The translations under genes were made by a program, and so were the position numbers. From NCBI RefSeq assembly GCF_003073045.1, contig NC_037592.1:5941924-6005923 (forward strand): DNA of 64,000 bases, in the 5' to 3' direction. The notes beneath the pieces were generated by a model, which worked only from the letters and a program-made list of their open reading frames with translations, was not told the DNA's origin and ran no database searches. The DNA is from Pomacea canaliculata (lineage: Eukaryota; Mollusca; Gastropoda; Architaenioglossa; Ampullariidae). Positions 534 to 26,242 of this stretch are shown piece by piece (position 1 is the first letter of the stretch; every line of letters begins with the position of its first letter).

Positions 534-972
534 ACCAAGTTTGCTTTGCGCCATTTTGTAACAGTTACGTCAAAACCGTTAAATCTCAGCCGTGAGTTCA
601 AGACAGGCAAGTGGCCCCCCAGAGACTTGCAAAACATTGAAGCCTCATTCCAAGAGAGACTGAGACCGGAGTACAATGTCCACTGAGCTGCCGTGGTTCC
701 TAAAAGAAACGACCGTTACTGTTACATTCAATAGCAAAAATTGTTTACACGAAAACAGAAATAAATCTATACAAAAGGTAAAAAATGAATAAATCGTGAA
801 AATCTTATGTGGCCTTTATTGAAAGACAATAAATAAAATTAAGCGCCAAGACTATAAGACATGATTTACAAGTTCACTCACCTGTGACAGGTGTACAGAA
901 GTACGGCAGACACTCCCAGGTAGCCACCAGCATCCACAACAAGATAAACCTTTGCCTTCTTCTGGCCACCAT
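534..972 (-). CDS. C-type lectin receptor, copy 1 (partial: exons 1-2)
   Basis: Two exons of a CTLD membrane receptor are visible; the rest is beyond the left edge. Exon 1 (972 to 882) encodes a signal peptide: an Arg-rich start (MVARRRQRF), then the hydrophobic LLWMLVATWECLPYF, ending in phase 1 at a GTGAGT donor. I chose the ATG at 972 because it sits in an ACCATGG context; an in-frame ATG lies further upstream. Exon 2 (699 to 534, 166 nt) encodes the first half of the CTLD: QWTLYSGLSLSWNEAS, the first canonical Cys in FCKSLGGHLPVLN, and a KW segment ending at a GTAAGT donor in phase 2. Both exons are open and splice in frame (phase 1). Length and phase match copies 4 and 5 exactly. Sugar-binding residues would be in exon 3, which is not visible. 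Confidence 0.75.
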
Positions 973-1043
973 GGTTCTCGCCACTGGAATTGCTTCAAGA
1001 AAATGCATTGTCCCCGTAGTGAACCCACCCAGGTGTTCTCCAT

Positions 1044-1058
1044 CACGTGGTGACGTCA
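1044..1058. promoter_or_regulatory. E-box plus CRE palindrome upstream of lectin copy 1
   Basis: CACGTG (1044-1049) is followed by the full CRE/ATF palindrome TGACGTCA (1051-1058), 79 bp upstream of the copy 1 start codon. The same palindrome, or a one-base variant, occurs at a similar distance in the other four copies, which is why it is listed as a probable promoter element and not chance. Confidence 0.55.
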
Positions 1059-1914
1059 CACGCGAGCTGGTTCAGGCGCGCGGGGGAATGTCGGGAGGAC
1101 ACTAGCCAATCGCCATCCTCCGACATTTACAGGTGGAAGGCTTCTTGCTTCATTGGGGTGGGAGTTAAGGCAAGTGTTCTTGTTCATGTGTGTATATGTG
1201 GGAGGGGATAGTGCGTGTGTAGCGTTTGAAATGTCTACACACATATCTGGAACTATTTGTTCAAAACATAACCGTAAAAAAAACCCCAAGAAAACCTTGA
1301 GTCACGTGAGAGATGGAAGGAGAGAGAGAGCATGCTTACACAAGTTTCATTACTCTAAAAATATTTAGAGACCAGTCTACAAGAAAGGTGCGAGAAGGAC
1401 ATTGACAGAATTAATAAAAACAAACTGAGCACTTGGAATAAAAAGTGCAGCCTCACTGCTAATAACAAATCTTTAATGAATAACTCAGTAAAGCAATGAC
1501 GAAATATCAAATACATAACTATTTATGGAAATTGATGAACACACACATGTCAACGAACTATGATGGACACAAGTATATTGACGAAGCAGGATAGATATAG
1601 TGATGAGCAATGACAGGTGTATTGACGAACAATAAGACACGGATATATTGACCTACCATGATATTCATATATTGACGAGAAATGATCACTACATTAACCA
1701 ACAAGCATAGATATATACATATATTTAGTCTCTTTCGTCCTCCGATGACCTCAATTCGACCCCAGTGTGAGCTGATGACATGATATGATTGGACATTGCT
1801 CACAGCCATCTTTACTGTTATCACTAATATATATATTATCCATAATATCATCCAACTAACCACACACCACTGATCACCTGACTTCAAATCCTAACAATGA
1901 CCGACACTTCCTGT
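1059..1914. other. Intergenic between lectin copy 1 and the duplicated block
   Basis: No coding exon, RNA gene or mobile element was recognised. The sequence is AT-rich. Around 1550-1690 a loosely repeated phrase built on atattgacgaa recurs every 30-40 bases, resembling a decayed minisatellite. Confidence 0.4.
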
Positions 1915-2329
1915 CATCTCAAAATACACTGGTGTCTAATTCCTCAATGCTCACGCGCACCAGGTCCATGCATAAATCATTATGCGCCCACCAAGACATC
2001 AATTTTTTATGGAGACATGTACACACAAAGCCTAAAAAAACTTACATTGAGAGAACACAATTTTAAATGGAAACAGTTTTCCTTCAAAGTCAGTCATTTG
2101 ATGAAAACTCATTTTATTTCAAAGATAAGTTTCTCACCTTAAATAAACGTTGACCATTCAACATTCCTATGTCTCTTTTCCTTATTGCTAAATACCTTGG
2201 TGTTAGTACTTTGTCATTACATTTGAAAAAATTCTTACAGGCAATTATATTCTTTACTTTTCTAGTTTTAAGTTACAAAAAAAAAATCCATACTTTTGTT
2301 TCCAACTGTGCTGCATCCTTTGGTTTTCA

Positions 2330-2840
2330 TTATAACATTAACAATACTAATTATAATACTAATAGTTGAATTATTAATTTAATTAATTTTACTGGTTAAA
2401 ATGTTAATACTAATACTCATAATACCAATTCTAATGGTAATAATACTTTTTCCAATGCTGCTAGTTCTAACATTCATAACAATAGTAAGACTACAAGTTC
2501 TTATACTAATAATTATTCTGATATTATTAGTTATAAGACTACTAATTGTAGTAATAATAATAATATTATTATTAATAGCTTCTAGTTCTATGATTTATAA
2601 TAATACCAATATTACTAGCTCTAACATTAAAACAAATTAATTTTCATAGTCTTTTTAATACTTAATACCAATATAATATTATAACTAATATAATACTAAT
2701 AATACTAATCTTTTTATAGCTAATACTAATCTAATGCTACTAGGTCTAACAAGAATAATAATACTATTAAATAATAATATCAGTACTAATATTAGGCCTA
2801 ATGTCGATACTATTACCGATACCAATACTACTAGGTCTAA
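2330..2840. repeat. Degenerate ATN trinucleotide tract (left unit)
   Basis: About 500 bp of imperfect AAT/ACT/ATA trinucleotides, as in aatactaataatac. It produces long Ile/Leu-only open frames that are not genes. Its counterpart in the right unit is at 9405-9890. Confidence 0.8.
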
Positions 2841-3404
2841 TATGAATTCTCACTTCCTTTCTCGTTCTAAGAAATTCGATATTATGTGAAGCATACATCA
2901 GTAAGTACTAAAGATGTGTTGTAGTATTGTTCATGTAGTTCCTACAGGTACCACGCAAACTGTGAAATGTTGCTCCTGCAGTTTCTACAAATATTCAATA
3001 CACTGTGAATAGTCATCCTTATTCTTCATGCACTTGTATAGAAGCCTGCCTGTCTCGGCCAGTTCATGGATGGCTGACTTTGTCATGGATGGCTGACTTT
3101 GTCGCGCTGACGAGGACTGCGCCCTTTGCCACAAACACCTGCAAACCTGTTGAAGTCGCACACCACAAGCAGACAGCCAGCAACACCCACGACAATGACG
3201 AAGGTAGCAGATGAGGTGGAGGTGTACACACTGGGAGATCCCCACTCCGAGTTGTGGCTTCTTCTGTACTTGGACGTGGTGTTGCGGTGCATGGCGGGTA
3301 TCACCATGGAGACGTTGGGAGGGAGTTTTATTATGCACTTGCACACCACCAGCTCAGACCCTTGAGAAAAAAATGAATGTTTCTCTGATTATCGAAGTAG
3401 CGAT

Positions 3405-5062
3405 TTCACCTTTAAAAAAATGGCGCGGACAAAAACCTTCACAAACTAATAAACAATAGAAGAAAGAGATGCACAGAAAGTACTCTGGCAGACAAACGTG
3501 TTGCTAGCTATACCTATTGACAGATAATGTCAATACTATTAAAGTAGCGCTCAAAAAGATAGACATACTTAAAGAAAGACACACATATATATAGTAAAAA
3601 AATATATGTTATATAACACATTTCTGTTGTAAGTCAACAAAAGAAGGTGCTAGACATATTAACCACACATAAAGAAAGATATGTTTTGTTATACTACACT
3701 AAAGCCAGACATCATCATCGATACTGAAAATGAAAGCATTATAATTTATTGTCTTCAATATTTTCTTTATATTTGTACAAGGATTCCATAGGAGGAAGAG
3801 AGTAAAAGCCAAAGTTTTAAAAAAGGTTTCAGTTGATCATTAGCTTCATGCTCCGTGGGTTGACTTCCTTTAGTGCTTTGATCTCTTGTTATCTATTACT
3901 AGCAAGTCAATATTTATCTTTACCATTTGTCGACGGGGTCATCTCTGACGAGGAGCTGTATTTGAGGAGTCAGAAATAGTGGGAGGTTGATACTGACTGA
4001 GCTCATTGCTGGATGTACTTGTGGTTCCTGTGTTGTCAACAGAGGAGTCCGTGGACTGTGGAGTAGTGGCGGTCTCTGATGATGGTTGTGGTTGGGTTGA
4101 AGTGGACGTAGGGACGACCGGGGATGAAGAAGTTGTGATGGTGCTGAATGGAAATACCACAGGTTGTGGTAAGCTGTTGCTGTTGGTGGTGGAAATATTC
4201 GGCGGGCTGTTGTTGTCGACATTATCTGAGGAAAAATCTGCTTTAATAAGTTTTAATTAGCAATTTCACCTTTTAAAAAAATGGCGCTGGACAACAACCT
4301 TTACAAACTAATAAACAATAGGAGAAAGTACTCTGGCAGACAAAAGTTTCGCTAGGTACACCTATTGACAGATAAGAAAGACAAACACACACACACATAT
4401 ATATAGTAAAAAAATGTATGTATATAACATATTATTGTAAGTCAGTAAAAGAAAGGTGCTAGACATATTAACCACACATTAAGAAAGACATGTTTTGTAT
4501 ATACATGTACTAATGACGCCAGACATCATCATCGATACTGAATGAAAATGAAAGAATTGTAATTTATTGTCTTCAATATTTTATTTATATTTGTACAAGG
4601 ATTCTATAGGAGAAGCGAGTAAAAGTCAAAGTTTAAAAAAAAGGTTTCAGTTGATCATTAGCATCGTGCTTCATAGGTTTACTTCCTTTCCTGCTTTGAT
4701 TTCTTGTTATGTATTACTTGTAAGTCAATATTTATCCTTTACCATCATTTGTCGAAGGGGTCATCTCTGACGAGGAGGTGTGGGAGGTAGTGGGAGGTTG
4801 ATACTGACTGAGCTCAGTGCTGGATGTTAACCTCTCTGTACTTGTGGTTCCGGTGTTGTCAACAGAGTCAGTGGACTGTGCAGTGGTGGCGGTCTCTGAT
4901 GATGCTTGTGGTTGGGTTGAAGTGGACGTAGGGACGATTAGGGGATGAAGATGTTGTGATGGTGCTGCACGGATCTACCGCAGGTCGTGGTGAGCTGTTG
5001 ATGTTGGTGGAAATGTTCTGCGTGCTGATGTTGTTGATGTCATCTGAAGAAAACCTGATTTG
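3405..5062. repeat. Tandem duplication of a stalk exon and its intron (about 860 bp x2)
   Basis: The stretch from about 3405 to 4260 repeats as about 4262 to 5062. Both start with a phrase resembling atttcacctttaaaaaa, then an intron with an atgacg..gacatcatcatcgatactga phrase, then a Ser/Thr-rich minus-strand stalk exon. The right unit (8953-12531) has only one such unit, so the expansion happened in the left unit or was lost from the right. Confidence 0.8.
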
Positions 5063-5494
5063 ATAAGTTTTACTTATGACCAGTGGTCGAAGTCAAAGGT
5101 CATAGAGCGACAATTCTCTCGCTCATACTACACACTCTATCGCTCTCTCACACAAACTTTCTCTTTGTCACACACACTCTCGCACAGTCTTTTCGACTTT
5201 CCCACACTATCTCTCTCACTCACTCTCTCTCTCTCTCTCTTTCACACAATTCTTTCTCTCCTGCGCGCGAGAGAAGGAAGAATCTTACTTTCAAAGCATT
5301 CTTTTAGCATCGTGGTTGCTGACGAATTCACTGTAATGAGCAGTCTAGACAGCAATGTATTTATTCAAGTATACTGTGCATGCAAGAAAAACACTGCGCC
5401 CACACATTCTTGTCCGTTTGAGGGAGGATAACTCATGCACTTTTGCCAGCAGCTGTCCGGAGTAGACGCATTAAGCTGCTGAGTCTGCAGGTTT

Positions 5495-5533
5495 GGCAAT
5501 GAACCAGGCAATGAACCAGGCAATGAACCAGGC
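5495..5533 (-). repeat. 12-bp repeat x3 in the PAN exon, coding PGSL
   Basis: Three perfect 12-bp units near the start of the copy 2 PAN exon encode Pro-Gly-Ser-Leu three times. Copies 4 and 5 have only one related PGSL- or SGSL-like segment at this place, so this is a local in-frame expansion. Confidence 0.85.
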
Positions 5534-7953
5534 ATTGTAGTGGAACGACAACTACCTGCAAACACGGACACATGACCAAACTGTCTTGGTGACTTGACAG
5601 GTTTTAGTCCACAATAGACCACTTTATCTACTTAGCAACATGGATGTAAACAATGATCGGAAATTGTCAGGTCAGTAAATAAGTTGTCTGGAATCGTATA
5701 AGAAATTATTTCCACGTTAATAGAGGCAGATATAAAATACATACATACCAATAAACAAAAACAAAAATATGTAGATGGATCTAGCTTAAAGGGTGAAAGG
5801 TGTACGTGTATTGACCTTTGACATGGGTCTGACCTTTTCTGAGAGAGTTTATTTTCTTTGAACAAAGTCACAGCAGACAAGTCAATCTTACCTTTGTCAA
5901 ATTCGCACACAGCGCTGCACGGCCTTGCAGTTCCAGGTACACAATTTTTGGTTGTCCTGTTTGTACATAACACAAAAATCTGTCTGTTGAAAATTAGTTC
6001 ACCATCTCCCCAGAACGAGAGACCATCCGGCTGTGGCGAGCAGTCTCCCTCCCATCTGTTGGGCGTCTCATTAGGAGTTGGTGAGTAAAGGCCAGTCCAG
6101 ATGTCGTTTATCCTATTGTAGAAAATATTTAGTAGACACAATCATAATGGAAAAGTTTGAACATTGTGTAGTCAATGCTACACCGCGCATGTACAGTAAT
6201 CCCCTTTCCCTCCCTAACCACCACAATTTTAACACACCTTTTACAATTTTATTTTATTATAAAAATTATTCCTGTAAAGATTTACCAAAAAGTTATAGAA
6301 GGTTAAGTTTAGGTAGATGTTTTCATATTCAGTGCCTGGAAGAGCATTGATTGTAAGTGGTTCAACGTGTCTAGGGAACAATATATCTGAAAGCGTAACA
6401 AATCCCTCTTCGTCCGCCGCGTTTACCTTCCATCATTTATCTCCAGGCTAGAGCAGGCCTTGAACCACTAGACTTCTACTTTTATGTGTGCGTGTGTGTT
6501 TCCGAATACTGTAGTGTATGAACGATTGCGAATTTGTTCATTGCTGTTTGTAATGGTGCTTACATTATATAAAAATAATATTATATAAACCCATTATCTG
6601 TTTTAAAAAAGACCTACGAAGTCCCACTGCGCCATTTTACAGCTGTTTCGTTAAACCCGTGATATCGTATCTGGGTGTTCAAGACCGGCAGATGTCCTCC
6701 TAAAGAGTTGCAAAACTGGGATGCCTGGTTCCAAGACAGTTGTAGATGTGGGTACAGTGTCCACTGAGCCGCCGTAGTTCCTGTGCACAGAAGAAATGTT
6801 TACCGTCTCATCTAACTAAATCTTCGACTTCAAACAAACCCATCGCTGTTATCAGTCGTCTGATTAAATTGTTATGAAAAGGCAACATTGTGGAATCTGT
6901 ATGTCAGTGGTTATGAGTTGGTTGTGTATGTTTTGTCATTTTCCACAGGAAAAAAACTGAAATAGTTTTGTGTTGCTATTAAATATTTCTTTTATTCATA
7001 GTGGCAAAGTATTCTGAACTGAAAAGCAGGAGACATTTTATGAATAAGGCTGGTATAATTATCATTAAATAGTTTATTAATGTGCTGCAAGGAAAAAAAA
7101 TAAAAAGAGAGAAAAATTCCATTAAGAATGTTTGGTCTCTATTGTATGTCTGTAAAATATGGGATTTTATTTTTGTTTACACTTTGGAACCACGTTTTAA
7201 ACCATAACTTAGCCAGTTTATTCTATATTTATGAAGCAATGTTAAGTTTCTCCAGGGCAACAGGGAAACTAAGGTAAGATTTTGGTCTCCGAAGTTAGGA
7301 ATCATTGTCGAGACCCCGCTTTACCCCTGAGGTCTAGAACAAAGGGGAAAGATACTCTGGGGCAAAGGTATTATAAACATAATCGACGGAACTGTGACAA
7401 ACATGTTATGAAATCGTGGCATTCAAAATAAATAATTCTATACAAATAATTCACGGTAGAAGTTTCCCTGCACACAAAGGGAACTTAGTTTGTCACAATT
7501 CCAAGACCTAAGAAAAATCCCGATTTTTTTTATCGTCAAGCGCGAGTGTGACTTGTTTGTTGTTTGTGAATTAGGTCTGAAGATTATAATCACAATAGTT
7601 ATGGAAAGACTGCAGTAAATCGTGTCATTTATGACAATTACAAATCATCAATCTTTTTTTAATTTTTGCAACAGAGAGACAACAGTTGCTATCTAAATTT
7701 CGTTCACTGTTATGCTTTGTGTGCGGCTGTCTGCGCGTGCGGTGTGTGTGCGTGTGTCAAAATGAAGATGTTATCACACCAACCTGAGTAAGTTGTTGTA
7801 CAGAAACACGGCAAATATTGCCAAGTTGCCACAAGCAGCCAGCACCACAAAACTCTCCCTGTCGCCATTTTCCGCGCCGCACGAAGGACTAGCTCTGGAC
7901 ACCCGGGGTGTCGCCTTCACACGGAGTTCAGCGGAGGAATACACTGTCACGCT

Positions 7954-7961
7954 TGACGTCA
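7954..7961. promoter_or_regulatory. CRE palindrome upstream of lectin copy 2
   Basis: A perfect TGACGTCA lies 86 bp upstream of the copy 2 start codon, followed by gtcatg. It is at the same relative position as in copies 1, 3 and 4. Confidence 0.55.
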
Positions 7962-8473
7962 GTCATGTGCAATTCACTTTCAAATGCTGGGTAGCTAGTG
8001 TCTGTTTACGAGTCAAACAACAATTCTATGAACTTTTGATGAGACCTTTCAGGGACAGAGGTTTCTTCACGCTCTGTTAATATGTGAGAGTGCGCGCGCA
8101 ACACGGAAGGACTGGGAGATAACTGTGGAAGGGCGATGGTGAGGAATTTGACCACACACATAGAAATATGCACGTCTTTATAGTGCAGTGGTGTGTAGAG
8201 GAACTTTTTTTCAATACAATGAAGTTCTGCATCCATAAAAGTAAAAATCCCGAAATTCAAGATGCCAATATAATAAGCGGCTCAGACAAAACAATAATAG
8301 ACAATCGTACATGGACAGAAAATATTAATAAGTCATGACTGTTCATCCTAAGTTTTGCCAACAGAACAAAGATACAAATAACAGAACAGGAAGGAAAAAA
8401 TATATGTTTTTGATCGAGATACAATCACCCGAGGATATCTAACCGGAGTTGGACGCAGCGACACAATCAATAG

Positions 8474-10191: not shown

Positions 10192-11884
10192 TCATGGATG
10201 GCTGACTTTGTCGCGCTGACGAAGACTGCGCCCTTTGCCACAAACACCTGCAAACCTGTTGATGTCGCACACCACAAGCAGACAGCCAGCAACACCCACG
10301 ACAATGACGAAGGTAGCAGATGAGGTGGAGGTGTACACACTGGGAGATCCCCACTCCGAGTTGTGGCTTCTTCTGTACTTGGACGTGGTGTTGCGGTGCA
10401 TGGCGGGTATCACCATGGAGACGTTGGGAGGGAGTTTCATTATGCACGTGCACACCACCCTCTCAGACCCTCGAGAAAAAAAAAGAACATTTACCGATTA
10501 TGGAAGAAGCGATTTCCCCTTCAAAGAAAATCGTGCGGACAGCAACCTTCACAAACTAACGTACAATAGGAGAAAGAGAGACACAGAAAGTACTCTGGCA
10601 CATCTATTGACAGATAATGTTAACACTATTAAAGTAGCACTCAAAAAGATAGACATGTTTAAGGAAAGACATATATATATATAAATATTTGACACATTGA
10701 GTTTAATTTCTATTGTAAGTCAATAAAGAAAGACGCTAGACATATTAACCACACATTAAGAAAGAAATATTTTGTTTATACTACAATGAAACCAGACATC
10801 ATCATCGATATTGAAAATAAAAGCATTGTAATTTATTGTCTTCAATATTTTCTTTATACTAGTGCAAGATTTCCATAGGAGGAAGTGAGTAAAAGACAAA
10901 GTTTTAAGAAAAGGTTTTAGTTTATCATTAGCTTCGTGCTCCGTGGGTTTACTGCCTTTCCTGCTTTGACCTCTTGTTATATATTACTTGCAAGTCAATA
11001 TTTATCCTCACCATTTGTCGAAGGGGTCATCTCTGACGAGGAGGTGTGGGAGGTAGTGGGAGGTTGATACTGACTGAGCTCAGTGCTGGATGTTAACCTC
11101 TCTGTACTTGTGGTTCTGATGTTGTCAACAGAGTCAGTAGACTGTGGAGTAGTGTCGGTCTCTGATGATGTTTGTGGTTGGGTTAAAGTGGACGTAGGGA
11201 CGACAAGGGATGAAGAAGTTGTGATGGTGCTGCATGCATCTACCGCAGGTTGTGGTGAGCTGTTGATGTTGGTGGTGGAAATTTTCGGCGTGCTGATGCT
11301 GTTGTCGACATTACCTGAGGAAAAACCTGCTTTCTTAAGTTTTACTTATGACCAGTGGTCGAAACGGAACTGTGACAAACACATTTATGAAATCTTGGCA
11401 TTCAAATAGATAGTTGTTTACAAATATTTCACGGTAGAAGTTTCCCTACACACAAAGGGAACCTTGTTTGTCACAATACCAAGACCTAAGAAAAATCCCG
11501 CTTTTCTCTCGTCAACAGCGAGTGTGCGCGCAATGTTTTCTCTGACTTGTTTGTTGTGTGTGAATTAGTTCTGGAGATTATAATCACAATAGTTATGGAA
11601 AGACCGCAGTAAATCATGTTATTTGTGACTATTACAGGTCATCAATTTTTTTTTATTTTGGCAACAGATAAAGAACAGTTGCTATCTAAAATTCGTTCAC
11701 TATTATGATTTGTGTGCGTGTGTTGTTGGTTTTTTTGTGTGTGTGGGTCTGCGTGTGTGTGTGTATGTGTGGGTCAAAATGAAGATGTTATCACACCAAC
11801 CTGAGTAAGCTGTTGTACAGAAACACGACAAATATTGCCAAGTTGCCACAAGCAGCCAGCACCACAAAACTCTCCTGTCGCCAT
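10192..11884 (-). pseudogene. Lectin receptor copy 3: signal-stalk-TM only, CTLD and PAN exons deleted
   Basis: Three exons are visible: signal 11884-11801, stalk 11314-11012 and TM 10469-10192. The stalk is fully open (303 nt, Ser/Thr/Pro-rich, starting NVDNSISTPKISTT) and the TM exon is open (NTTSKYRR, helix TFVIVVGVAGCLLVV, tail ending KVSHP). Exons for CTLD and PAN are absent, removed with about 2.3 kb by a deletion that joins intron 1 to the stalk-side intron. Because every module has phase 1 borders, signal-to-stalk splicing would keep frame. However, the signal exon is 84 nt instead of the 85 nt of copy 2: one G is missing near codon 5, which moves the hydrophobic core out of frame. 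It is either a dead copy or a sequence error in that base. Confidence 0.75.
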
Positions 11885-11968: not shown

Positions 11969-11976
11969 TGACGTCA
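11969..11976. promoter_or_regulatory. CRE palindrome upstream of lectin copy 3
   Basis: A perfect TGACGTCA lies 85 bp upstream of the copy 3 ATG. The flanks are nearly identical to copy 2, as expected from the segmental duplication. Confidence 0.5.
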
Positions 11977-13766: not shown

Positions 13767-16700
13767 TCAAGCGGTTGGATTTGCCCCTTGAACTGTTCCC
13801 GGGTACTTTTTGCCACAAAGACTTGTCAACCTGTTGATGTCGGACGCCACAAACAGGATGCCAGCAACGACCACGACAATGACGAAGGTGGCGGAGGAGG
13901 TGGAGGTGTACACGCTGGGAGATCCCCACTCCGAGTTGAGGCTTCTTCTGTTCTTGGACGTGGTGTTGCGGTGCATGATGGGAATCTGCATCATCAGGGA
14001 GATGTTGGGGCGGGACTTCATACATGGGCACAACAGGGTTGAGAAACTGAAAGTAGAAGGGAGATGTTTAATTTTTAACCGCTTGTAAATGCCGCAATGC
14101 TTTTACTTAAAGAAAAGCACGAAGAATGCAAAAATAGACATAAAAGAATGAAAAAGGCAGACAGACCGATGATCATAATTTTACAAACCCCTTGATTGAT
14201 ACAAGCTGAATTTATCGTAGTATGTATATCTTTTCGCACCAGACTGTCGATAATTTACAGACTTTACTTTGTTTGTATCATTCATTTTCTTTTTCATTTA
14301 ATGCTTTGATTTTTGTTTTTATCTATAAGCTACAATCGTCCTCACTTTTTGTTGCAGAGGTCTCTTTAGATGATGATCCATCTTGTGTGACATCCGAGAC
14401 AGTAGTATGTCGATACTCAGGGAGGTCAGAGTTCATTGACAGCTGCTCTGTGTTGTCCTTGTCCTTAACAGTGCTTTCCCTTTCCACAGGTCCTTCTGAT
14501 GTCGTCTTCCTGTCGTTTACCGTCGTCAGCAGGACTTCATTTTGAAACTCTGAACCGTTGGCTGCTAGGGTACTACCTGTCTCCATAAGTGTTGGGGAGG
14601 ACATCTCCGCTGTCGGCCATGTTGCTTCTGTCTTGGGTTCAGCGCTCCACTGTGCTTTTGTCTCCTCAGTCGTTCTCTCCTCTGACCTTTGTGGATGAAG
14701 TTGAAGCCGTCTGTAGTCGATTGGACAACAGTGGTGGTGCACGGATCTCCTGCAGGTCGTGGTGAGTTGCTTTTATCCACGTAAGCGTAGTTCACGCAGC
14801 AGTTGCTAACATTGCCTGAAAAGGGTGTCTTTCATTAGAGTGCTTTTTTTCATTTTTTTCTGCTGATGAAGATGTTGAAAAGTGAAAGTTCTTCTCCATA
14901 AAGCAGGGATGGGCAAAGTTTTCTTTTCGCGGGCCTCTCACAGTTGTAAACTACGCAGCGGGCCGGTAAAATACCAAAAACCCTCGCCACAACTACACAA
15001 TAAACCTTGGGAAATGGGATGAAAGTGCAGTGATTAAGAAAACAGAGAGAGAAAGACTCACCGTCGAAACATGATTTTATCATCGTGGTCGTTAAGGTGT
15101 TCGTCGTCATACTCACGACGGATATCAAAGTGTCACCCAGGTATCCTGTGCACGTTGTCGGGCCAAACAACGCACCCACACATTCCAGACCACTGGAGGT
15201 CGGGGGGAAGCTCATGCACTGCTCCCAGCAGCTGTCCATGGCAGACTCATTGAGGGTCACAGTTTGTTGTGGTGGTGAACGCAGTGAGCCAGACTGTGTG
15301 TTCTTACGACAGCCACCTGCAAAAAGTGTGAACAACACAATGAGATGAAGAGAGAGCATTGCTCTACCGCCGACAGTGTCTCTCTCTCTCAAGTGTAACT
15401 CATCAAAACAACAAAAATTTACCCTAGGAAGTAGGTTTATACATTTTATGGCAAAGATTGGCATCTTTTAAATGATAAAATAAACAGGTTGTTATCATCC
15501 CGTAACTTTTACATCGTTGTGTCGTCAGGTGTTGGATGGGGTAGTATGCTGTTGGAGGGAGAGGTGAGGGGTAGTGAGATATTACAGGGGGGATTGAAGA
15601 GACCTCACTTATCTCGGGTCTAGCTTTTGTAAGGTAGTTATCACCTCCTTTTTTCGCTTCCTTGCCTTTCCCAACCTCTGGAGAGTCAGTTAACCATTCC
15701 CGACAAGTGTGTCGACTGGGAGACGACGGATGCACTACACGTGTATCCAATTTTTATCCCATGGCTCCCAAATACTTTGAGAAACGATAAGATAAATCAT
15801 TTATACAAGAGTCCAACAGACAAATAAACAAAGAAAAACACAGAAAAAATAAGGAATGTCAACTAGAGCTCCGTTTACCTGTGTCAAACTCGCACACGAC
15901 ATTGTACAGATCCCAGCAGTCCTTGGTGCACAGTTTTCGAGATGATTTTTGATACCTTACACAAAGGTCTTGATCCAGATCATTAGGTTCACCCGATGCC
16001 CAGAACTTTAGACCATCTGGCTGCAGCGAACAGTCTGCCTCCCACCTGTTGGGCTCGTTGTTGACAGTTGGCGTGAAGAGGCCGGTCCACACATCATTAG
16101 ACCTTAGTGTAAAAAATAGTAATAATAGATTGTAAAGATTTTATGTTATGTTGCATACTCGATTGTTACCATTAGGGTGGTGTCACACCAAAATCACTTT
16201 TAGTTCCAGAATATATCTCGAAAGCTTCAGTCGGTGCTGCTTCTTTCTTGAGAGTAAAGGTTTAGTTTTCCTTCTACTACATCCATTATTCACGAGTACA
16301 GTAACCGCTTCTTAGACACCCTTAATGGAATGGTAAATATTGTAACACTTTGCTTGCTATTATTCTTATCAATTTATTATAAGTTAGTATGATTTGTCAG
16401 ATTTAATTAAAATGGATATTTTAATAGCCAACATTGCCTTTTTATGTTCTGTTATGATGCAGGTATGTGCACGCATAGAATCGCTTGATAGACGCACATT
16501 TGATTTGAAAAAAAATCATGTTTGTGTCCATCGTGTCCACAAATTCAAGCAACAGACACCAGCCTCAACTTACAGCAACTTCTGTGTATTCCAGCTCACA
16601 GCCGTTGCGTCAAAAGAGTTCCATCTCAGCTTGGAGTTCAAGACCGGAAGATGTCCGCCTAAAGATTTGCAAAAGTGTGAAGCCTCGTTCCAAGACAGGC

Positions 16701-17819
16701 TGAGACCCGAGTACAGTGTCCACTGAGCTGCCGTGGTGGCTAAGAAAGACCAAACGTCACGTGACTTAGTGGGAAGCTTCACTGACCGCAGAAAATACAC
16801 GAACAATCTCTTTGGGGAAAAAACCTATAAAGATCAGAACTTTTTTTGCAAAATGTTAAAAAAAAATACACCTTTACCTTCTGGTCAATCATTCCGTGTT
16901 CGTGTCAAAGGTTATGCAGATTTGTTTGCTTGTACAAAATAATTTTAAATGATGCAATAATAGTTTTTTTTTCTCGCTGTCAAATATTTTTGTACAGTAT
17001 GTCACCAAGTGCCAACAGACAAGTCTTTTTATTTCTAATTACAAATTAGACCGTAAATGTCTAACAGTAGCAGACGGGGAAGAAGGCTTTGACTCCTGTT
17101 TCGGTTTGTCAGATTTTCCCCTCACAACCTGACATTGAGATGTGTCCAGTTCCTGGATGGTCACTTGTCTTGCACTTGCTTCATAACAGAAAAGCTACCT
17201 ACTGACTTGTGGTTACTGCCTGAGTTTTATTTTTTCTTGAATTTGTTGTGCAGGGCTACGAGTTAGCTCATTTAGTTTTCACATCCGTTTTTCAGTCGAG
17301 AAAAAGACATTACGCACTAAAAAGTCGAACATTCCTAAACTGTATTCCTTTACAAATATTAAGATAAGTATTTAACTTATAAGTAAATAATTTGGAGATG
17401 TATTATAGTCTTGTTGTCTCTAAAAATATTACAAAACAGAAAAAAAACAGAACGGGTTGTGAACTGTGTAAATCGCGGGATGTTGCATCATCTTGGTACA
17501 ACAGCATCCGAACGGAAGACTATAACTCTAACCATGTCATCCACTTAAATTACAAGTGACTTTAATTCAGTAGCTTCTTGACGCGCGTGCGTGCATGTCA
17601 TTAATAAAACAAATATCTTCAACAACTATATCGGTAAAGACGATAAACTGTATAAATCGTAAATCGTTAAAAACAATAAAGCAGCTAAATATAGAATGGA
17701 AGAAATGACTGTGACCATACCAACCTACATAAGGTGTCGAACACAAACAGGGAGGACACTGCCCCATAGTCCACACACACCCACCACCAGGAAACAGTCT
17801 CCTGTCTTCGTGTCATCAT
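13767..17819 (-). pseudogene. CTLD-PAN-mucin-TM receptor, copy 4 (frame-broken)
   Basis: Exons: signal 17819-17725; CTLD-a 16739-16574 (166 nt); CTLD-b 16102-15879 (224 nt); PAN-like 15316-15062; stalk 14815-14346; TM 14046-13767. The two CTLD exons and the PAN exon are open and splice in consistent phase. CTLD-b shows WTGLF, QPD, the Ca/sugar-type motif EPN, then DLCVRY, a second Cys pair and VVCEFD; the WND motif is replaced by WDLYN. PAN shows SCWEQCMSFPP, ECVGALF, CTGYLGDTL and SCFD. The signal exon ends in the wrong frame: its Cys-rich end (QCPPCLCSTPYV) is one frame away from the Met. The stalk changes frame after STTDGFNF, and the TM exon is about 4 nt shorter at its 5' end, which breaks frame before the helix TFVIVVVVAGILFVA. 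It may be a decaying gene or unpolished sequence. Confidence 0.72.
14904..14967. mobile_element. hAT-like terminal fragment in intron 4 of copy 4
   Basis: It starts CAGGGATGGGCAAAG and continues with gcgggcc...gcgggccgg, as at 8474. The other terminus is not evident, so this is probably a one-ended remnant. Confidence 0.4.
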
Positions 17820-17901
17820 TGTCCTCGGTACTGGCAGAATGCTGGTTCCAGACAGCATCGTTACTCCTTTCATAGCTCCGACAGAAATAACGGTCCCGGG
17901 G

Positions 17902-17909
17902 TGACGTCA
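17902..17909. promoter_or_regulatory. CRE palindrome upstream of lectin copy 4
   Basis: A perfect TGACGTCA lies 83 bp upstream of the presumed ATG at 17819, in the context ggggtgacgtcatac. Confidence 0.55.
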
Positions 17910-20380
17910 TACACAAACAGCCATGCGCGCGGTGGCTGCTGGGGCGAGTACGCAGCAAGTCCTTGTCCACCATCTTTAGCTGAGACAACGTCAGGTGGGG
18001 AGGGGAAACTTCGAGAAGCTTTGTCCTTTTAGTGAGACATTGTGGATGATTAGAAAGGAGTATGTAACATTCTGTGTGTGTATATAAATATCATACTTCA
18101 TAGTTCGGCGTGGTGTGGCGTTGAGTGTTAAGAAAGTAGTGTAGTCAGAAAAGCGCAATATTGTATAGAGATAAAAGCAGAAAAAAGGAAGAAAACGTGG
18201 AAAGAAAGCTAGAAAGAAAATTTCAAATGGATTATAATATATATATAAACAAAGGGACTCCTTACTGACCAGTCTCAAAGTAAAATACTGCTACAAAATT
18301 AATTGCATCTTCTTTTCTTCAAAAATTGTCTATTTGCCAATATTGACGTAGTCAGCGATGCATTGTCGGCTAACGGCTTCTTCCTTTTTGAAAGTCGCAT
18401 TTTAATGAACAGACAACGATTTATCGAACTAGAGTAGACGTCTTTATGGATGGACACTTACCTACTGTTGCTCGCTAAGCGTAGCTGGGAGAATTTTTAA
18501 ATATTCAATATTTATTCAATCCATTGTTCTAGTGTCTTTTTATCAACAAAACTCTTGTTAGAACACTCAAAAAATCATGTACTTGTCTGTGGTAGAAAGC
18601 TTTCAGACATATATGTGTGTGTGTGAGAGAGAGAGAGAGAGGAAAGGAGCGAACGAGAGAAAACAAATGTGCAAACGTGACGAGTCAAACATTTTCAAGA
18701 TGTAAGGTTCAAACTCTGGTGATTGAATACAAATGTGACAGATAGCTAGCCATTGATATTTGAAGTCACAGTATGAAGGCCATATGGAAGGACAGCTTCC
18801 AGAAAACAGGAGAGCGTCTCTTCTGCCTTAACCAAACCTGAAGACTTACCCCGGGTAACCGGGCAGGTGGGCGATACTTAGGGCTTAACTCCAGTTACCC
18901 ACGTCAAGATAAGTTACAGGGGGACCATACATACAATACTCACAACTTCCATCACTCAGTTTTAACTACACGGCTCACGAGCCCACCCCCCCTGCTGTTC
19001 TTCGAACACAAGACTCAGTGAGATGTCTTAATAAAAGATTTATTTAAACAAACAAAACATACAATACAAAAACTTGAGCATGTCCCAGTACTACCTACCC
19101 ATGCTAAACGTACTTCCACTGTTCCAGTCCAGCTACCTCTCTGTATCTCTTAGACTTCATTGACACCTCCGCCAGCCGGCTGGTCACGCTTGGCTGCCCC
19201 CCACAGTTACATACTCGCATAGGCACATACTCTCCCTCCTTTCTTGAATAAGGATTCTCATTCTTGTCAACAAGCCACCCTAGACCCTAGTTGGGCCTAT
19301 TGTTACTTCTCTTGCAAAGTTTTGCTCTAATATTTCCTACGGCAAGGTTTTTGTTTGCTCACGTTATGCCCTCGGTTAGAGTTCAACAGAAAAACTTGAT
19401 GTTCAATAAAATTTACTGTACTTGTTGTAGTTGAAATTAACTGCCACCCTGAATAATAAGCCACAGATTCCACAGACAGGGATGGGTAGTTGACTAATCT
19501 CTCACATCATCATACAGGACATCGCTTCCTTCCAAGTCACCCACCTGTGACGAATCGGTTCCGTATGGAGAAGGTAAAGCAGCGAGTGTGAGAGAAGATA
19601 TTATTTCATGTTTTGTCTGTTTTAGGCGTTTACTGCTGACACGGTAAAAACACAAACACACCTTCAGGCTATTACTAAACTCGTGTAGAAATTCTTCAAG
19701 ATATTAATTAATCGCGTATGCATATTAAATATGGAAGAAAAAAGCGAAATAACTCGAAAATACACATACCTATGTTTAAAATTTACTCCAAACTAATCCC
19801 ACCAACACACACGCACCCTGTTCTTACACAGAAAGAAAAGCAGAATCAGATAATAATAATTTTAAAAAAATCCGAAGAAAAGGTACATGTGAACGCCATG
19901 TAATTTTTATAGATGTACGAGAACAATGCTTGTCTTGGTCTAGGTAAGGGACATAAGCACACAATTATAGTGTGCTTCTCTCCCCTTCATTCCGCAATAT
20001 ATTTAAACAGTCTACGGTAAAATAAAGGTGGTGAAGGTGGTCGATACTCTCTCTTTCTTTTTACATATTAATATATTTTGTCTTCTGTCGATTATCATTT
20101 GGTTCCAAAATTACCTTTAACGTAAACATTGCTAAAGAATATTTTTTCATTAAATGCTTCCCCTTGCTGAAACACCAGCAAATTTTTCTTTGCGATTGGG
20201 AAAAAAAATTTTACAATTCTTTTAAGTGTAAAGGTTTTCTTTTTTCACATTATTGTATCATTATTTTCTTTCTGTTCGTGTATCCCTAAACTTATCATTA
20301 ATCATTCTTATTAACAGAAGACTCTTCACGTCCTGCCAGTCAGTTTTTCTGTCCACCTCTCTGTCTGACAATGATTAAAT
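17910..20380. other. Intergenic, no gene recognised
   Basis: Between the promoter of copy 4 and the 3' end of copy 5. It contains a (GT)n/(GA)n run at about 18616-18645 and, around 18840-19560, a less AT-rich stretch (ccccgggtaaccgggcaggt, later cagggatgggtagttgac) that could be an unrecognised repeat. No open frame has supporting features. Confidence 0.4.
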
Positions 20381-20944
20381 TCACTTCCTCGATGTTTCAT
20401 CGACTGTTCCTCTGTGTTTTTTATCGAAAAGTGTCATCAACTTGTTGGTGTCACAAATTACAAACAAGAGGCTGGCAATGACCGTGAAAGCGATGAAGAT
20501 GGCGGAGTAGGCGGTGCTGGGGATGCTGGGAGAGCCCCACTCGGAGTTGTGGTTCCTTCTGTACTTGGACGTGGAGTTGCGGTGCACGATGGGTAGAGTA
20601 CTGGAGATGTTTGTATTGGCTTTCACGCACGCGCACAACGGTGATACAGAACCTGTCGACAGAAATCGTAGAGAGTGGGACTGGTCCATTGACTGCTATT
20701 GACGGTTAGCTCCATGTTAATTTTTTATGAAGATTTTATCAATCAAAATAAATAAGCCCTCTTAGTTGGTGTATGTTCGTGTTTGTGTTTATGCGTGTGC
20801 GCGCGTATGAATGTACCTATGTGTGCATGTGTTTGTAGCTGTATGTGCTTATGTAAGTGGTATTTTTTTAAATGTTAATATTAACGGAGACACAAAAGAT
20901 CACCTCCTAATTGTGGCTGACAGACACACAGTGACATGACAGAC

Positions 20945-21012
<68 letters not shown>

Positions 21013-21946
21013 AAACTACTCATCTGTTGCTTGTACAATGTCATCCAGAACAGAAGAAAATTCGAGCTGTACTGAATGTCTTAAAAAAGATTCCTATTGA
21101 TAAGTCAATGTGTTTTGATCGTCGTCTCGGCTCACTGAATGCTTCAACCTTATTTCATCGATCACCAGTAAGAAGAATTTGTTTATGCTTACCTTTCGGC
21201 GACAAGGGCCGCTTTAACAAGGACCTACATTGTGTGAAACCAAGACAATAGTAGTTTGAGATTTCGTGCTGAAGCTACTTGTGCTCTCGACGATGACTTC
21301 ATTAGACTGGGAAGTAGCCGCAGTGCCATCTGTTGTTGGTGTCCTGGAGCTTGGCATCGTCGGAAAATCGCTGAATTGTAAACCTGGGCTGCTGAGTGCT
21401 TGGGTAGCACTGGTCCTATTCACTTCCAGGGTGTAATTTTCCCTTGACGACCATGTTGTGTAGGTCTGGTGCTCAGTGCTCCCCTGTACTCTTGTCGTCT
21501 GAGTGGTGGTCTGTGATCTTGGTGTTTGAGTTGAAGTGGTTGTCGCCTGAGTGGTGGTCTGTGATCTTGGTGTTGGAGTTGAAGCGGTTGTCGTCTGAGT
21601 GGTGGTCTGTGATCTTGGTGTTTGAGTTGAAGTGGTTGTCGCCTGAGTGGTGGTCTGTGATCTTGGTGTTGGAGTTGAAGCGGTTGTCGTCTGAGTGGTG
21701 GTCTCTGATCTTGGTGTTTGAGTTGAAGCGGTTGTCCTCTGAGTGGTGGTCTCATCTGATCTTGTTCGTGTTGAGGTGGCTGTAGACGTCTGGACACAAC
21801 TGGAATTGGGGACGACTGGGACGAAGGGAGTTTTAACAGAGCTGCAGGGATTTCCTGCTGGACTGGTTTGTCATTTTTATTGAAAAAAGTATATCCACTG
21901 TAGCATTCACTAATTTCATCTGAAAATGACATATTTTTCATTCGCT

Positions 21947-22024
<78 letters not shown>

Positions 22025-25000
22025 TCATATATGCCAAATTTATAAAGCTCATACACTCCTAAGGATTATTCTCTTAGCACCTAAGAACAAGAACGACACA
22101 TGGACTGGATATGAGAGACAGGAAAACAAAAAAACATGAACTATTAAAGAATAAACAACAGTACTAACAAAGAATAAAATCAAATACAGAAAACACAAAG
22201 AGGAACCAAATAACAAGAACAAGAGCTGAGACTAACATGATATTGCAAAAGAAAGGGTATGAAAAGGGACTATTATTATGGGAAAGGTTGTTAGGAGTAA
22301 TGTTTATGGAAGAGGTCCGTTTTCAGTGCACGTTTAAAGCATTCAATAGTGGGTAGGTGGCGGGTATGGAAACGGCGAGAGTTCTATTGTTTCGCTGCAC
22401 AATAACTAAAACTCCTGTGGACATGTGTTGTTGTTTTGGTGACAGGAAGAGTAAGGAGACGATCATCAGACGAGGAGCGGAGTTGTCTAGCTGGGGCATA
22501 AGGGAGGAGCAGTTCAGAGAAATAATCAGGGCAGGTGCCAGCAAAGAAATTAAAACACAGCACGGACAGTTTGTACTGGATGCGAGAAGGGATGGGAAGC
22601 CAGTGTAGAAAACAAAGAAGAGGGGTGGCGTGGTCCCGTTACAAGCTCTAAGCACCAGACGTGCAGCAGAGTTCTGTACTTTCTGGAGTTTGTGGATGAG
22701 CAGCCAGCAAGCAAGGAGTTGTTTTACTGTTGACCGCTGCTTTGACATTTCTCTCTCTTCCTCGCCTATATCTGTTTTTCTCAAGCAGACAGACAGACAG
22801 AGGCAGGAACTCTCACCTTGAAAGCATTCTTTTAACATCGTTGTTGCTGTTTGCACGACTGATACGTTCAGCAATGCTGTCTGAGTGGACATCAACGTGT
22901 CACCCACGTATCCCGTGCACTTTGTCAAGACAGAGTCAAAGACTGCAGCTATGCACTCTTCCCCGCTGACAGTCGAAGAGTAGTTCATGCACGCCTGCCA
23001 ACAGCTGTCTTTGGAAGACTGACCCAGGTTTACGTTTATGACTTTTACAAGCGATGTGAGCAGTGAGCCGGGCTGTGTGCTATAACTACAGCTCCCTGCA
23101 ACCATGATTCATCATCTTATGGTCCAGTATAAGGAATAAAGTGTAAATGCAAGTTTAAAACATTTTTACTGAGTCACATTTCATACAGAAAATTTTGTTC
23201 TTATTAACAAGTTGTTAAATGCCAGACGGCGTGCGAGAAAAATATTTCAAACTAAGTCTTACAAACAGGCATTAGCGATCTTTTACCGCCATTATTCTTC
23301 TCACAACCTATACTAAGGTGATTTAGTTTTGAACTCCAGATAACGAAAAGTAAGTTCAGCTTACCTGCATCAAACTCGCAAACGACATTTTCCGAACTAT
23401 TGCATTGCCTGGTGTGAAATCTGAGGGATGCAACTTGTACCGGACACAAAAGTCTGTCCCTAATGCGTCAGGCTCTTGGGGTCCCCACACGGTTAGACTG
23501 CCCGGCTGTTGAGAACAGTTTTCCTCCCAGGTGATGGGGGCCTTTCCGGAATTATTGGAAAATAGACCAGTCCAAATGTCCTGGGACCTAACAGTAAAAA
23601 CTCTTCATGTTTTCACATCGCTTTTAGTGTATACTTACTTATCTTCAAAGAGCATTTATTGTCAACCATCACATTTTAAACAATCACAATACCACTAATT
23701 AAACTGTTTCGTTGTTTCTATAACTTCTGATTTTATGCGTCAACTGGCAGTTACTGATAGGTGATTATAATAATAAGTGCAGTGTGTAGTTTGTATGTTA
23801 TTGGTATGTTGTTTGCATGTGTTATTACAGCTTCCTTCCAAACTCAGCGTTAGCTATTTGTTTTAATCTTTAATTACTGAAAGTAGTTGTGGTCTTAACT
23901 ATGTTAGTTTTTTGCTGTGACTATTTATTGAGCACTTCCTAATAAGACACCCTGGCTCACTCTGTTCTACGGTTTTACAATTTTCCCGCCAAGACCCTGC
24001 CTATAGCTTTGTACAGGGCTATGTGCCGAGCTACATACCGACTCAGTGGACATCTAAATTATTCAGTGGAGGCTAGGAAAGGCCGATGTAATGATAGAAC
24101 GAAAGTAAATACGATTATAAGTGCTTTTTTTTAAAAAAAGTAAACAGACCTGCGACAAAAGCAGAAGGAAAAAGGGAAAATGATATATTTATGCTATATA
24201 GTAATTTTTTGAAGGAAAAATTAGAAAAAAACAACATAAAAGCATAAAGATAGATCGAATCACGATGGCAAGGATAAGATGTTTCTAAAAATATGCTGAC
24301 TGAGAGGTGGACTGGCGGGGAAGGAGGTGGGCAGTCTTCATGGTGCCCCAAAAGATGCGCACAGAAACATTTTTCTCTAGTTTTAAATTAAATCTAACAT
24401 ATTAATGTAAATGTGATTCATATAGTCATCTAGATGTTTATTATTTTTTTGTTAAAGTACAAAATAAGAGTAATAGTTTGTAGTTAGTAGTTGTACTATT
24501 TTCTCAGCTTCCTCCTAAACTCAACATCTTTAAAAATTAATGGCAACTAATTGCTTAGTTTTCTGAAAGGCTCCTTTGATTTTTGTTCTGGTGCAAAGTT
24601 AGGAAGTATTTTAACTAAATATTGGAGGGGGTGAGTCATTTTGATGTTCTCCCCTCAGATAAAAACAAAAACAAAAACAAATTAAAAAATATCTAATCAC
24701 ATTCAATCGCCAATTAGAAAAGTAAAATTAAGAATGCAGAATTAAAATATTAAGAAAATAAAATGTTATAAAAAGTCTTTATAATAACACAAAGGAGAAT
24801 TCATGTCATGAATTAATGAAAAAAACAAGAACCACACTGATTCGCGTCTCCCTGTTGTCTCCCTGTTGTGAGCGTTTCCGCCAGTCGCGGTCGTGGGCCA
24901 GAGAAACAAAATGACGGCCGAGGAAATAAGAATTTTTCCAGTCTGACAGCTGGGACTCAAAGAACACCTGCGCGGGCAAAACAACCTGATGCTAGGATGG

Positions 25001-26242
25001 TAGGGCGACACAGGATTTTGTGAGATAGTTTATGTGTGTGTATGTGCTTTCAGATGTTCCTTTATTAACTTTTGAACATATTGTAGCAGGATGAACTTAC
25101 ACCAAATTATTTTTATCCCATTTTAACACCGTTGAGTTAAAGCCGTTACTCCGTAGCTTGGTGTTGAAGACCGGCAGATGTCCTCCCAAAGACTTGCAGA
25201 ACATAGAAGCCTCGTTCCAAGAGAGACTAAGACCTTGGTAGAGTGTCCATCGGGCTGCTGTAGTTCCTAAACCAAACAGGGAATAGCTTGTTCAGTATGA
25301 ACCTCCATTAACATGGAACAAAAAATGTACAGTTTCCGTGGAGAAAAAAATCAGTTAGCTGGTTATTGAGCACGTGGGACTGTCTTTGTAATAAAAGAAC
25401 GATATTTGAATTGTAGTCTTTTTCTTGAAATTGTAAACTGTAAAGGCATCACAAAGCTTAAATATTTAATAGGAACCACCTTTAGATAATGCTACGGCTT
25501 TATGCTCCTCGAGGAGTAACAAGGAATGAACTGAACTGAGTTTTAGATAAAGGAAGTCTCAGAACCATGTATCGTGAAGAGAGAAAAATCCTATAAGCAT
25601 GTAATAAAATATTGACTATGGAATTAATGAAAATCCTTTAGGTTAATCAATATCTCTATGGCGCTGGTTGCAACAGCAAAGAAGAAGGGAAGAAAAACAA
25701 GAACAATAAAGGAAAACTTCAACTAAACAGAAACAATAAAACAGAAAGACAGAAAAAAATAAAAGGAAAGAAGAAAGAAAAAAAAAAAAACCAAATAAGC
25801 GGTAGTATTTCAGTTCTATTTTCGTTTTGAAGTATAAGTATATAGACATAGTAGTCTGACACAACCATTACGCAATTCATGAACGGATTTAATCTCCAGC
25901 ATAGACAACTTGTACTAAAAACATGTAAAAAATCTTTATCGTTGTATTGAAATGTTTCCCAAAATACTGAGAATTCAACTGAAATATACACACAAGAACG
26001 TTTGCAAGGGTTTGTGTGAGTCTAGTAATAGCAATAACCTTAGCAGCTATCTATTCTATAAAAATTCAAGAGAAAAAAAATCAACAAATGCAGTCAAAGT
26101 GTTTTAAAACGGTTACAACCATCACACTTAGAAAGGAAGAAAAACATTGTCAACAACCTTCGTAGCAGATCATACACGGGATCTGAAGCATCATCATCAG
26201 AAGCCAGCACCAATGAGCACCTCTCCATCTTCTGCTCGCCAT
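20381..26242 (-). CDS. CTLD-PAN-mucin-TM receptor, copy 5 (most complete; two frame breaks)
   Basis: Exons: signal 26242-26158 (MASRRWRGAHWCWLLMMML, 85 nt, phase 1); CTLD-a 25266-25101 (166 nt); CTLD-b 23587-23365; PAN-like 23095-22817 (279 nt); mucin stalk 21919 to about 21190; TM 20652-20381 (stop TGA, 90 codons). Signal, CTLD-a, PAN and TM exons are fully open. CTLD-b is 223 nt against 224 in copy 4: it reads SQDIWTGLFSNN, then EPD and DFCVRY in one frame and NVVCEFDAG in another, so one base is missing near 23430. The stalk changes frame soon after its start, then continues as a Thr-rich frame with 48-bp repeats. The TM exon has NSTSKYRR, NSEWGSPS, the helix AIFIAFTVIASLLFVI and a basic tail. 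Predicted role: cell-surface carbohydrate or microbe recognition (inference from CTLD architecture). If the breaks are sequence errors, this copy is a functional gene. Confidence 0.72.
20949..21010. repeat. (TAA)n microsatellite
   Basis: About 20 uninterrupted TAA triplets in the intron between the stalk and TM exons of copy 5. Confidence 0.95.
21494..21785 (-). repeat. 48-bp coding minisatellite in the mucin stalk of copy 5
   Basis: Five to six 48-bp units start at 21494, 21542, 21590, 21638, 21686 and 21734. On the minus strand, in the Thr-rich frame, each unit encodes 16 residues of the form STPTPRSQTTTQATTT. Odd and even units differ consistently (gtcgtc/gtcgcc and tttgag/ttggag), giving a 96-bp higher-order repeat. 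The long Gln/Leu/Pro frame over the same bases is a shadow. Confidence 0.9.
21949..22735 (-). mobile_element. LINE 3' end with (TTA)n tail, in intron 4 of copy 5
   Basis: On the minus strand, from about 22735, the translation gives the end of a non-LTR reverse transcriptase ORF: IHKLQKVQNSAARLVLR, then pieces such as STGVLV..QRNN in one frame and ECFKRALKTDLFHKHYS in another. A 3' UTR follows, ending gctttataaatttggcatat and a run of about 24 TTA triplets (21949-22020). This matches the usual 3' end of molluscan CR1/L2-like LINEs. The copy is strongly 5'-truncated and has several frame breaks. It sits in the same orientation as the host gene. Confidence 0.8.

Follow-up and report, generated by a model that had tools for sequence, protein, structure and literature searches.

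A tandem array of nine genes for predicted single-pass membrane proteins with a C-type lectin-like domain and a PAN-like module in Pomacea canaliculata

Introduction

Do five similar genes for membrane proteins, lying in tandem in a snail genome, belong to a receptor family of their own, and can they be regarded as working genes? This question is raised by a 64,000-nt stretch of DNA of Pomacea canaliculata (C3:5941924-6005923, contigs being labelled C3, C5 and so on; the whole stretch is hereafter the window), in which an earlier note had described five loci, here A to E, within 26 kb. Each was said to encode, in one unusual order, a signal peptide, a split C-type lectin-like domain (CTLD), a cysteine-rich PAN/apple-like domain, a Ser/Thr stalk, one transmembrane (TM) helix and a short basic tail, an architecture without a recognized family name and apparently in rapid turnover. 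Snails depend on germline-encoded lectin families, and the PTC1 and PTC2 clusters have been linked to parasite resistance.

The cluster is real, and it is larger and older than first described. With a probability that we put at about 0.6, it represents a tandem family, expanded within its lineage, whose nine members are type-I single-pass proteins in which a signal peptide is followed by a CTLD, a PAN-like module, a mucin-like stalk, a TM segment and a short tail. The two exons of the CTLD are referred to below as CTLD1 and CTLD2 and, together with the PAN-like exon, as the head. As a compact nine-gene cluster in an invasive snail, with a promoter element in common and a single-copy relative of matching exon plan, the array offers a defined target for studies of expression, populations and gene knockouts.

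Extent of the array

Searches of the genome with exon queries, covering 440,159,624 bases in 24 contigs, place nine tandem genes, all on the minus strand, at C3:5,913,965-5,968,165, a span of 54 kb. Nine TM exons (ten rows, two of them overlapping), eight PAN-like exons and eight CTLD1 exons were matched in the whole genome, all of them within C3:5,913,965-5,967,190, and none of these three queries found a match elsewhere at E values up to 0.1. The right end of the array, 5,968,165, is set by the first exon of locus E. To the left of the window, the flanking DNA holds four further genes, g1 to g4, as well as most of locus A, which is the fifth of the nine and extends past the window edge. The tandem arrangement reported earlier is thus upheld, while its extent grows from five loci in 26 kb.

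Gene plan and its variants

The genes follow a common plan of six exons, encoding the signal peptide, the first and second halves of the CTLD, the cysteine-rich module, the stalk, and the TM segment with the tail, separated by introns of phases 1, 2, 1, 1 and 1, the phase-2 intron being the one that divides the CTLD. Among the 24 exons delimited in the window, all acceptors (19/19) are AG and all donors (20/20) are GT, the borders having been placed with these signals in mind. The full order is present in B, D and E, and also in A once the DNA beyond the window is counted; locus C consists of signal peptide, stalk and TM exons only and lacks both CTLD and PAN-like module, so that the claim of a single order in five loci holds for four of them.

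A hydrophobic stretch is found in the first exon of eight genes (11-residue peak 1.18-2.43, C being scored without its start), and the frame-broken first exon of D reaches -1.01 on the piece scored. All nine copies contain a TM-like stretch, with a best 19-residue Kyte-Doolittle mean of 2.39-2.73, some rows being read across a frameshift. The tail has 22-32 residues, with more lysine and arginine than aspartate and glutamate in 8/9 copies and equal numbers in g4, and a tyrosine occurs in the tail of one copy of the nine. The longest stalk frames have Ser/Thr fractions of 0.35 (g1), 0.47 (g2) and 0.32 (A), and a stalk motif, PAGDPC, recurs in g1-g4, A and D, and C, E and the first stalk exon (a) of B have a variant of it (by eye). 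The stalk of g2 (C3:5920928-5921343) is a Ser/Thr-rich exon with internal repeats. Stalk, single TM segment and short basic tail were therefore described correctly, and so was stalk expansion: the stalk of E is enlarged by 5.4 copies of a 48-bp unit (window 21492-21752). Locus B holds two stalk exons, each a copy of the other.

The exon loss noted earlier is equally plain. On both flanks of the absent block, C and B are 82-90% identical in DNA, and the block itself comprises, in B, CTLD1, CTLD2 and the PAN-like exon; C thus derives from a duplication of B and is without these three exons. The head can be removed without disturbing the frame because the outer introns are all of phase 1, as is seen in C.

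The CTLD and its ligand motifs

The split CTLD is confirmed by Pfam. In the two spliced heads tested, of the eight in the array, Lectin_C scores 45.8 bits (D) and 42.4 bits (E) against a cut-off of 22.6, covering positions 2-107 of a 107-position profile, and at E values up to 10 these heads match Lectin_C alone, with no domain of the immunoglobulin superfamily (IgSF).

Classical calcium-dependent sugar binding, as at the site of mannose-binding protein, relies on an EPN or QPD motif together with WND. At the EPN position, two of the eight CTLDs have EPN and five have EPD, the motif of B being disrupted (by eye). WND is missing from all eight CTLD2 regions in any frame, and QPD occurs in four of the eight, located earlier than the EPN place (by eye). 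Because EPN or EPD is kept while WND is absent, classical calcium-dependent sugar binding by the array CTLDs appears unlikely.

A relative on another contig and the nature of the second module

The clearest guide to the second cysteine-rich module comes from another gene of the same genome. From the best 150 candidates for each domain, at least 143 CTLD and at least 120 PAN_1 exon matches were obtained. Among the matches listed, at least 11 CTLDs have a same-strand PAN within 3 kb; judged by the nearest PAN, at least nine of these stand in the order PAN then CTLD, all on C11, where one further CTLD is flanked by PAN on both sides, and just one, on C5, shows CTLD then PAN. This C5 gene, at 27.67 Mb (L047:6281 to L050:397), encodes a CTLD, a PAN, a Ser/Thr stalk and a TM segment followed by a long cytoplasmic part, and its head lies above the Pfam cut-offs for both domains (Lectin_C 39.8 bits, PAN_1 38.5 bits).

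The likeness to the array concerns the domain order from CTLD to TM, the places and phases of the head introns, and an EPN without WND. As judged by eye, the intron in the C5 CTLD agrees with that of the array in position and phase, four residues ahead of the W in WxGL; CTLD2 ends, as in the array, in a split glycine codon at the fifth residue past the last cysteine; and the PAN exon starts with GxC, ends with C..G and is of phase 1, as in the array, the stalk likewise beginning in phase 1. The C5 gene differs from the array in that its PAN passes Pfam, its cytoplasmic part is long and it is a single copy, its PAN exon finding no second match in the genome at E values up to 0.1. Array and C5 gene are related, probably through an ancestor of the form CTLD-PAN-stalk-TM.

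On C11, at 4.35-4.51 Mb (L048 and L049), there is a separate tandem cluster of the reverse order, PAN then CTLD, and all four C11 stretches of L048 and L049 in which a CTLD was matched (4/4) keep WND. Around PAN_1 matches on C10, C9 and C6, a home-made profile found no CTLD in three stretches of 6-7 kb.

The PAN-like label rests on the intron plan of the C5 gene and on global alignment. Our own global alignment, chosen for a module with fixed ends and evaluated with 300 shuffles per comparison, gives a z of 5.06 for the PAN-like profile against the C5 PAN and of 3.79 against eight PANs including it, with 0/300 shuffles as good in either case; the negative controls give -1.54 (CTLD2) and 1.07 (CTLD1). 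The cysteines of the module are also collinear with those of the C5 PAN (by eye).

Several results weigh against this identification. All eight copies were scanned with Pfam at E values up to 10, some rows containing X or lacking a piece: one copy of the eight matches PAN_1 at all, with 15.8 bits against a cut-off of 21.4, and one matches PAN_3 (E 0.078), while Defensin_like (E 0.0035, 1/8) and zf-Tim10_DDP (best E 0.063, 3/8) do about as well or better. In hhalign, the local comparison with eight genome PANs is at noise (14.95, with 2/100 column shuffles as good), where leave-one-out runs with the PANs themselves give 39-105, and the global comparison gives 5.18 against a mean of 3.5 and a largest value of 10.7 in 96 shuffles, which is no support. 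An AlphaFold model of the E exon, made with the D exon as its sole partner, has a confidence (pLDDT) of 37.5 and is unusable, and a search of the PDB with the eight-row alignment returned three chance matches only.

These failures to match PAN are what would be expected if a separate six-cysteine module occupied the exon slot of a PAN. Such a module would have to share the slot, phases, GxC start, C..G end and collinear cysteines of the C5 PAN, and leave the two z values to be explained, and we consider it rather unlikely. Because both hhalign runs fail, our confidence in the nine-gene family as outlined above is lowered, and the odds of a non-PAN module are raised. The second module is here called PAN-like and is probably a diverged PAN, although unproven. 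The domain assignment of the earlier note thus falls short in Pfam and gains from the C5 comparison; no name was found for the combined architecture among the best-ranked literature matches, and CTLD and PAN-type combinations are in print and, with the C5 and C11 genes, present in the same genome.

Selection, age and exchange between copies

The heads are under constraint among paralogues. Pooled dN/dS is 0.27 for CTLD1, 0.30 for CTLD2 and 0.25 for PAN, from codon alignments fitted to protein profiles, which biases the values downwards, and the ratio exceeds 1 in none of the 76 head pairs with computable dS (28 CTLD1, 27 CTLD2 and 21 PAN), dS being saturated in eight more (one CTLD2, seven PAN). 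These ratios argue against rapid diversifying selection on the heads, a statement about paralogues that does not cover alleles. Silent sites are near saturation in CTLD2 and PAN, and most copies look old, with only B/C and part of g1/g2 appearing recent; introns can be aligned only in B/C and near the CTLD of g1/g2 (blastn, E 1e-10, at least 80 bases). Turnover, as had been proposed, is visible, in the form of duplication, head deletion and exon-wise exchange; rapid diversification of the heads is not.

The TM exon behaves differently. Fourfold sites with the first two bases shared were compared in eight pairs, and the TM exon differs at 1/13 (A-E), 3/29 (D-g4), 5/32 (A-B), 4/14 (D-E), 4/27 (B-D), 5/27 (g1-D), 5/26 (g1-g2) and 0/44 sites (B-C, where it is the sole exon compared). 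In these pairs, one third to three quarters of the fourfold sites differ in CTLD1, CTLD2 and PAN, except in the mosaic pair g1-g2 (CTLD1 0/28, CTLD2 7/25, PAN 13/18). GC content at third positions (GC3) is 0.68-0.79 in the TM exon and 0.40-0.64 in the other exons. Unusually conserved silent sites and GC-rich third positions characterize the four TM exons that lie in the window, those of B, C, D and E (Table 1). Gene conversion, perhaps GC-biased, would fit this conservation, as would constraint at the nucleotide level. An antisense open reading frame shared over the TM exon was rejected as its cause, being interrupted by a stop in g1, g2, g4 and E.

Two features of the same exon count against the nine-gene family as outlined above: its dN/dS is 0.71, with 3/36 pairs above 1, a weak coding signature, and its third positions show no excess of change, that is, no codon-position bias.

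Broken reading frames

Another objection is that all nine copies are frame-broken, none being intact over its full length in the assembly. When the four conserved exons are aligned with frameshifts allowed, 13/33 exon copies show 20 shifts of one or two bases in all, or 18 if two of the three in g1 CTLD2 are read, as they can be, as none. Locus D has no shift in this alignment, yet frame conflicts are seen by eye in its signal-peptide, stalk and TM exons, and others occur in the signal peptide of C and the stalks of B and E. Together with the lost head of C, these breaks would be explained if the array were a graveyard, its copies being pseudogenes in decay, for the most part or without exception.

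Decay should have left other marks too. In 2437 aligned codons of the 33 exon copies there is no in-frame stop; with 3.7% of random substitutions in the array codons creating one, and assuming 4-10 substitutions per frameshift, about 3 to 7 stops would be expected beside 20 frameshifts under neutrality, and the probability of none is 0.05-0.0006. The head dN/dS values of 0.25-0.30 likewise speak against decay. The assembly itself is a further consideration, having been built from PacBio reads with smartdenovo and then corrected with Pilon, from a genome termed highly heterozygous, according to the available text of its description (PMC6129957).

Three unrelated neighbours in the window look split in the same manner. 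An Ankyrin and SOCS-box gene (ASB-like, 27992-29426) has Ank in one frame and the SOCS box in another that overlaps it, and two G-protein-coupled receptor (GPCR) genes of rhodopsin type, in opposite orientation and alike by eye (34438-35584 on the plus strand and 40126-41252 on the minus strand), both have 7tm_1 divided between overlapping frames; very short introns are an alternative cause in all three. By a rough count, frameshifts are denser in the array than in its neighbours. A further region (46559-50268) is open where read; it comprises a pair of FKBP_C exons and an exon whose TPR match is sub-threshold.

Assembly error is likelier than decay because the neighbouring genes are frameshifted too: residual indels explain the frameshifts better, some copies may be dead, and an array made up mostly of pseudogenes seems improbable to us. 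Frame-broken exons of this assembly should not be called pseudogenes without read support.

A common promoter element

The window contains four copies of the cAMP response element (CRE) palindrome TGACGTCA, which we take to be a control site for basic leucine zipper (bZIP) factors of the CREB/ATF type, against 0.76 expected, and 0/100 shuffles reach four; loci A, B, C and D have one copy each, immediately ahead of the first exon. In seven of the nine array genes the palindrome precedes the first residue used by 82-109 bp (in C, this residue is past the ATG); in E, TGACGTCC stands 74 bp upstream, and g4 shows an aligned variant of the CRE. Two more copies of TGACGTCA are found in 104 kb, away from array genes, and the palindrome is present in 17/56 genome stretches examined, many of which overlap, so that it is not specific to the array. 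The array copies share descent and are not independent events, although most introns no longer align. Both the CRE upstream of seven of nine genes and the silent-site conservation of the TM exon are new here. The element suggests bZIP (CREB/ATF-type) control and joint expression of the array genes.

The shared anchor and promoter invite a bolder interpretation, namely that this unnamed gastropod receptor cluster works as a cassette system, in which the anchor exon and CRE promoter are homogenized by exchange while the CTLD2-PAN heads are kept apart and individually preserved. If so, one cell programme would present, on a common anchor, a fixed panel of distinct heads along with headless forms like C. 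We regard this as doubtful.

Table 1. Exons, promoter elements and deletion junction of loci A to E (window coordinates, except where C3 is given).
Locus	Feature	Position	Strand	Remark
A	Signal-peptide exon	882..972	-	phase-1 donor
A	CTLD first half	534..699	-	
A	CTLD second half	C3:5941646-5941867		left of window
A	PAN-like exon	C3:5941101-5941355		left of window
A	TM exon	C3:5939615-5939850		left of window
A	CRE TGACGTCA	1051..1058		upstream of start
B	Signal-peptide exon	7784..7868	-	
B	CTLD first half	6618..6780	-	
B	CTLD second half	5892..6112	-	2 frameshifts in assembly
B	PAN-like exon	5289..5555	-	2 frameshifts in assembly
B	Stalk exon a	4743..5043	-	frame conflict (by eye)
B	Stalk exon b	3924..4225	-	second stalk copy; frame conflict near end (by eye)
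B	TM and tail exon	3083..3360	-	with stop
B	CRE TGACGTCA	7954..7961		
C	Signal-peptide exon	11801..11884	-	1-bp frame conflict near ATG (by eye)
C	Stalk exon	11012..11314	-	
C	TM and tail exon	10192..10469	-	
C	Head-deletion junction	near 11363-11364		
C	CRE TGACGTCA	11969..11976		
D	First (signal-peptide) exon	17725..17819	-	frame conflict (by eye)
D	CTLD first half	16574..16739	-	
D	CTLD second half	15879..16102	-	EPN present, WND absent
D	PAN-like exon	15062..15316	-	open
D	Stalk exon	14346..14815	-	frame conflict (by eye)
D	TM and tail exon	13767..14046	-	frame conflict at 5' end (by eye)
D	CRE TGACGTCA	17902..17909		
E	Signal-peptide exon	26158..26242	-	
E	CTLD first half	25101..25266	-	
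E	CTLD second half	23365..23587	-	1 frameshift
E	PAN-like exon	22817..23095	-	open; sole copy with a (sub-threshold) PAN_1 match
E	Stalk exon	21229..21919	-	frame conflict near 5' end (by eye)
E	TM and tail exon	20381..20652	-	with stop

Possible function

As the most likely mechanism, we infer that an O-glycosylated stalk would hold the CTLD-PAN head off the membrane, where the head would bind cell-surface or microbial ligands, probably otherwise than by classical calcium-dependent sugar binding. Because the tails of eight of the nine copies are without tyrosine, signalling would need a partner, or else the proteins might act in adhesion or tethering, or as shed or decoy molecules. Any assignment to a cell type would be conjecture, and a role of the cluster in immunity is unproven.

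The genes might instead encode real receptors with a non-immune use, in gamete or cell recognition, in mucus or epithelial adhesion, or as chemosensory accessory proteins. Heads whose selection is purifying and not diversifying, a CRE compatible with many tissue programmes and tails nearly devoid of tyrosine are all in keeping with such a use, which we take seriously, at somewhat less than even odds. What argues the other way is that the array, with its tandem growth, its exchange of exons and the lost head of C, recalls clusters of recognition genes, the PTC loci of Biomphalaria among them, which is a likeness and not a test.

Comparison with known systems

Among the best-ranked matches in the open-access literature, no named family of the form CTLD-PAN-stalk-TM was found, nor does one appear in the available text of PMC10140915, PMC9334734, PMC11417965, PMC8861042 and PMC8791074. 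The combination of a CTLD with a PAN-type domain as such is already known in print. In Caenorhabditis elegans, CTLD class IV, with 16 members, joins a CTLD to CW (PAN-3), as described in the accessible part of PMC5297725. This class resembles the array in uniting C-type lectin-like and PAN-type modules and differs in being a nematode family, the PAN_3 match of the array being confined to the single low-scoring copy reported above. A gastropod case of CTLD plus apple-type domain comes from Biomphalaria pfeifferi, in which CLECT genes that include an Apple-like domain are described in one sentence of the text available (PMC10075465). The snail lectins CREP and VIgL share a signal peptide and CTLD with the array; according to the parts of PMC10075465 and PMC10875847 at hand, their CTLD must be accompanied by IgSF domains, one or two in number, unlike the D and E heads, in which Pfam detects none.

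In its organization, the array recalls the Biomphalaria clusters PTC1/GRC and PTC2, which consist of single-pass TM genes tied to parasite resistance, as reported in the available portions of PMC7494358 and PMC10875847. As far as those portions go, these clusters differ from the array in the domains named (FN3, TMEM154, Ig and CTL), and hyperdiverse alleles and a genetic link to resistance are described for them; FN3 and TMEM154 found no match in the TM exon of E, the scan covering this one of the nine TM exons plus two heads. What the two systems have in common, on the same partial accounts, is the clustering of genes for single-pass membrane proteins and a marked turnover in structure, and a tandem cluster of single-pass TM genes is what the P. 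canaliculata array presents, with nine TM exons and a TM-like stretch in every copy.

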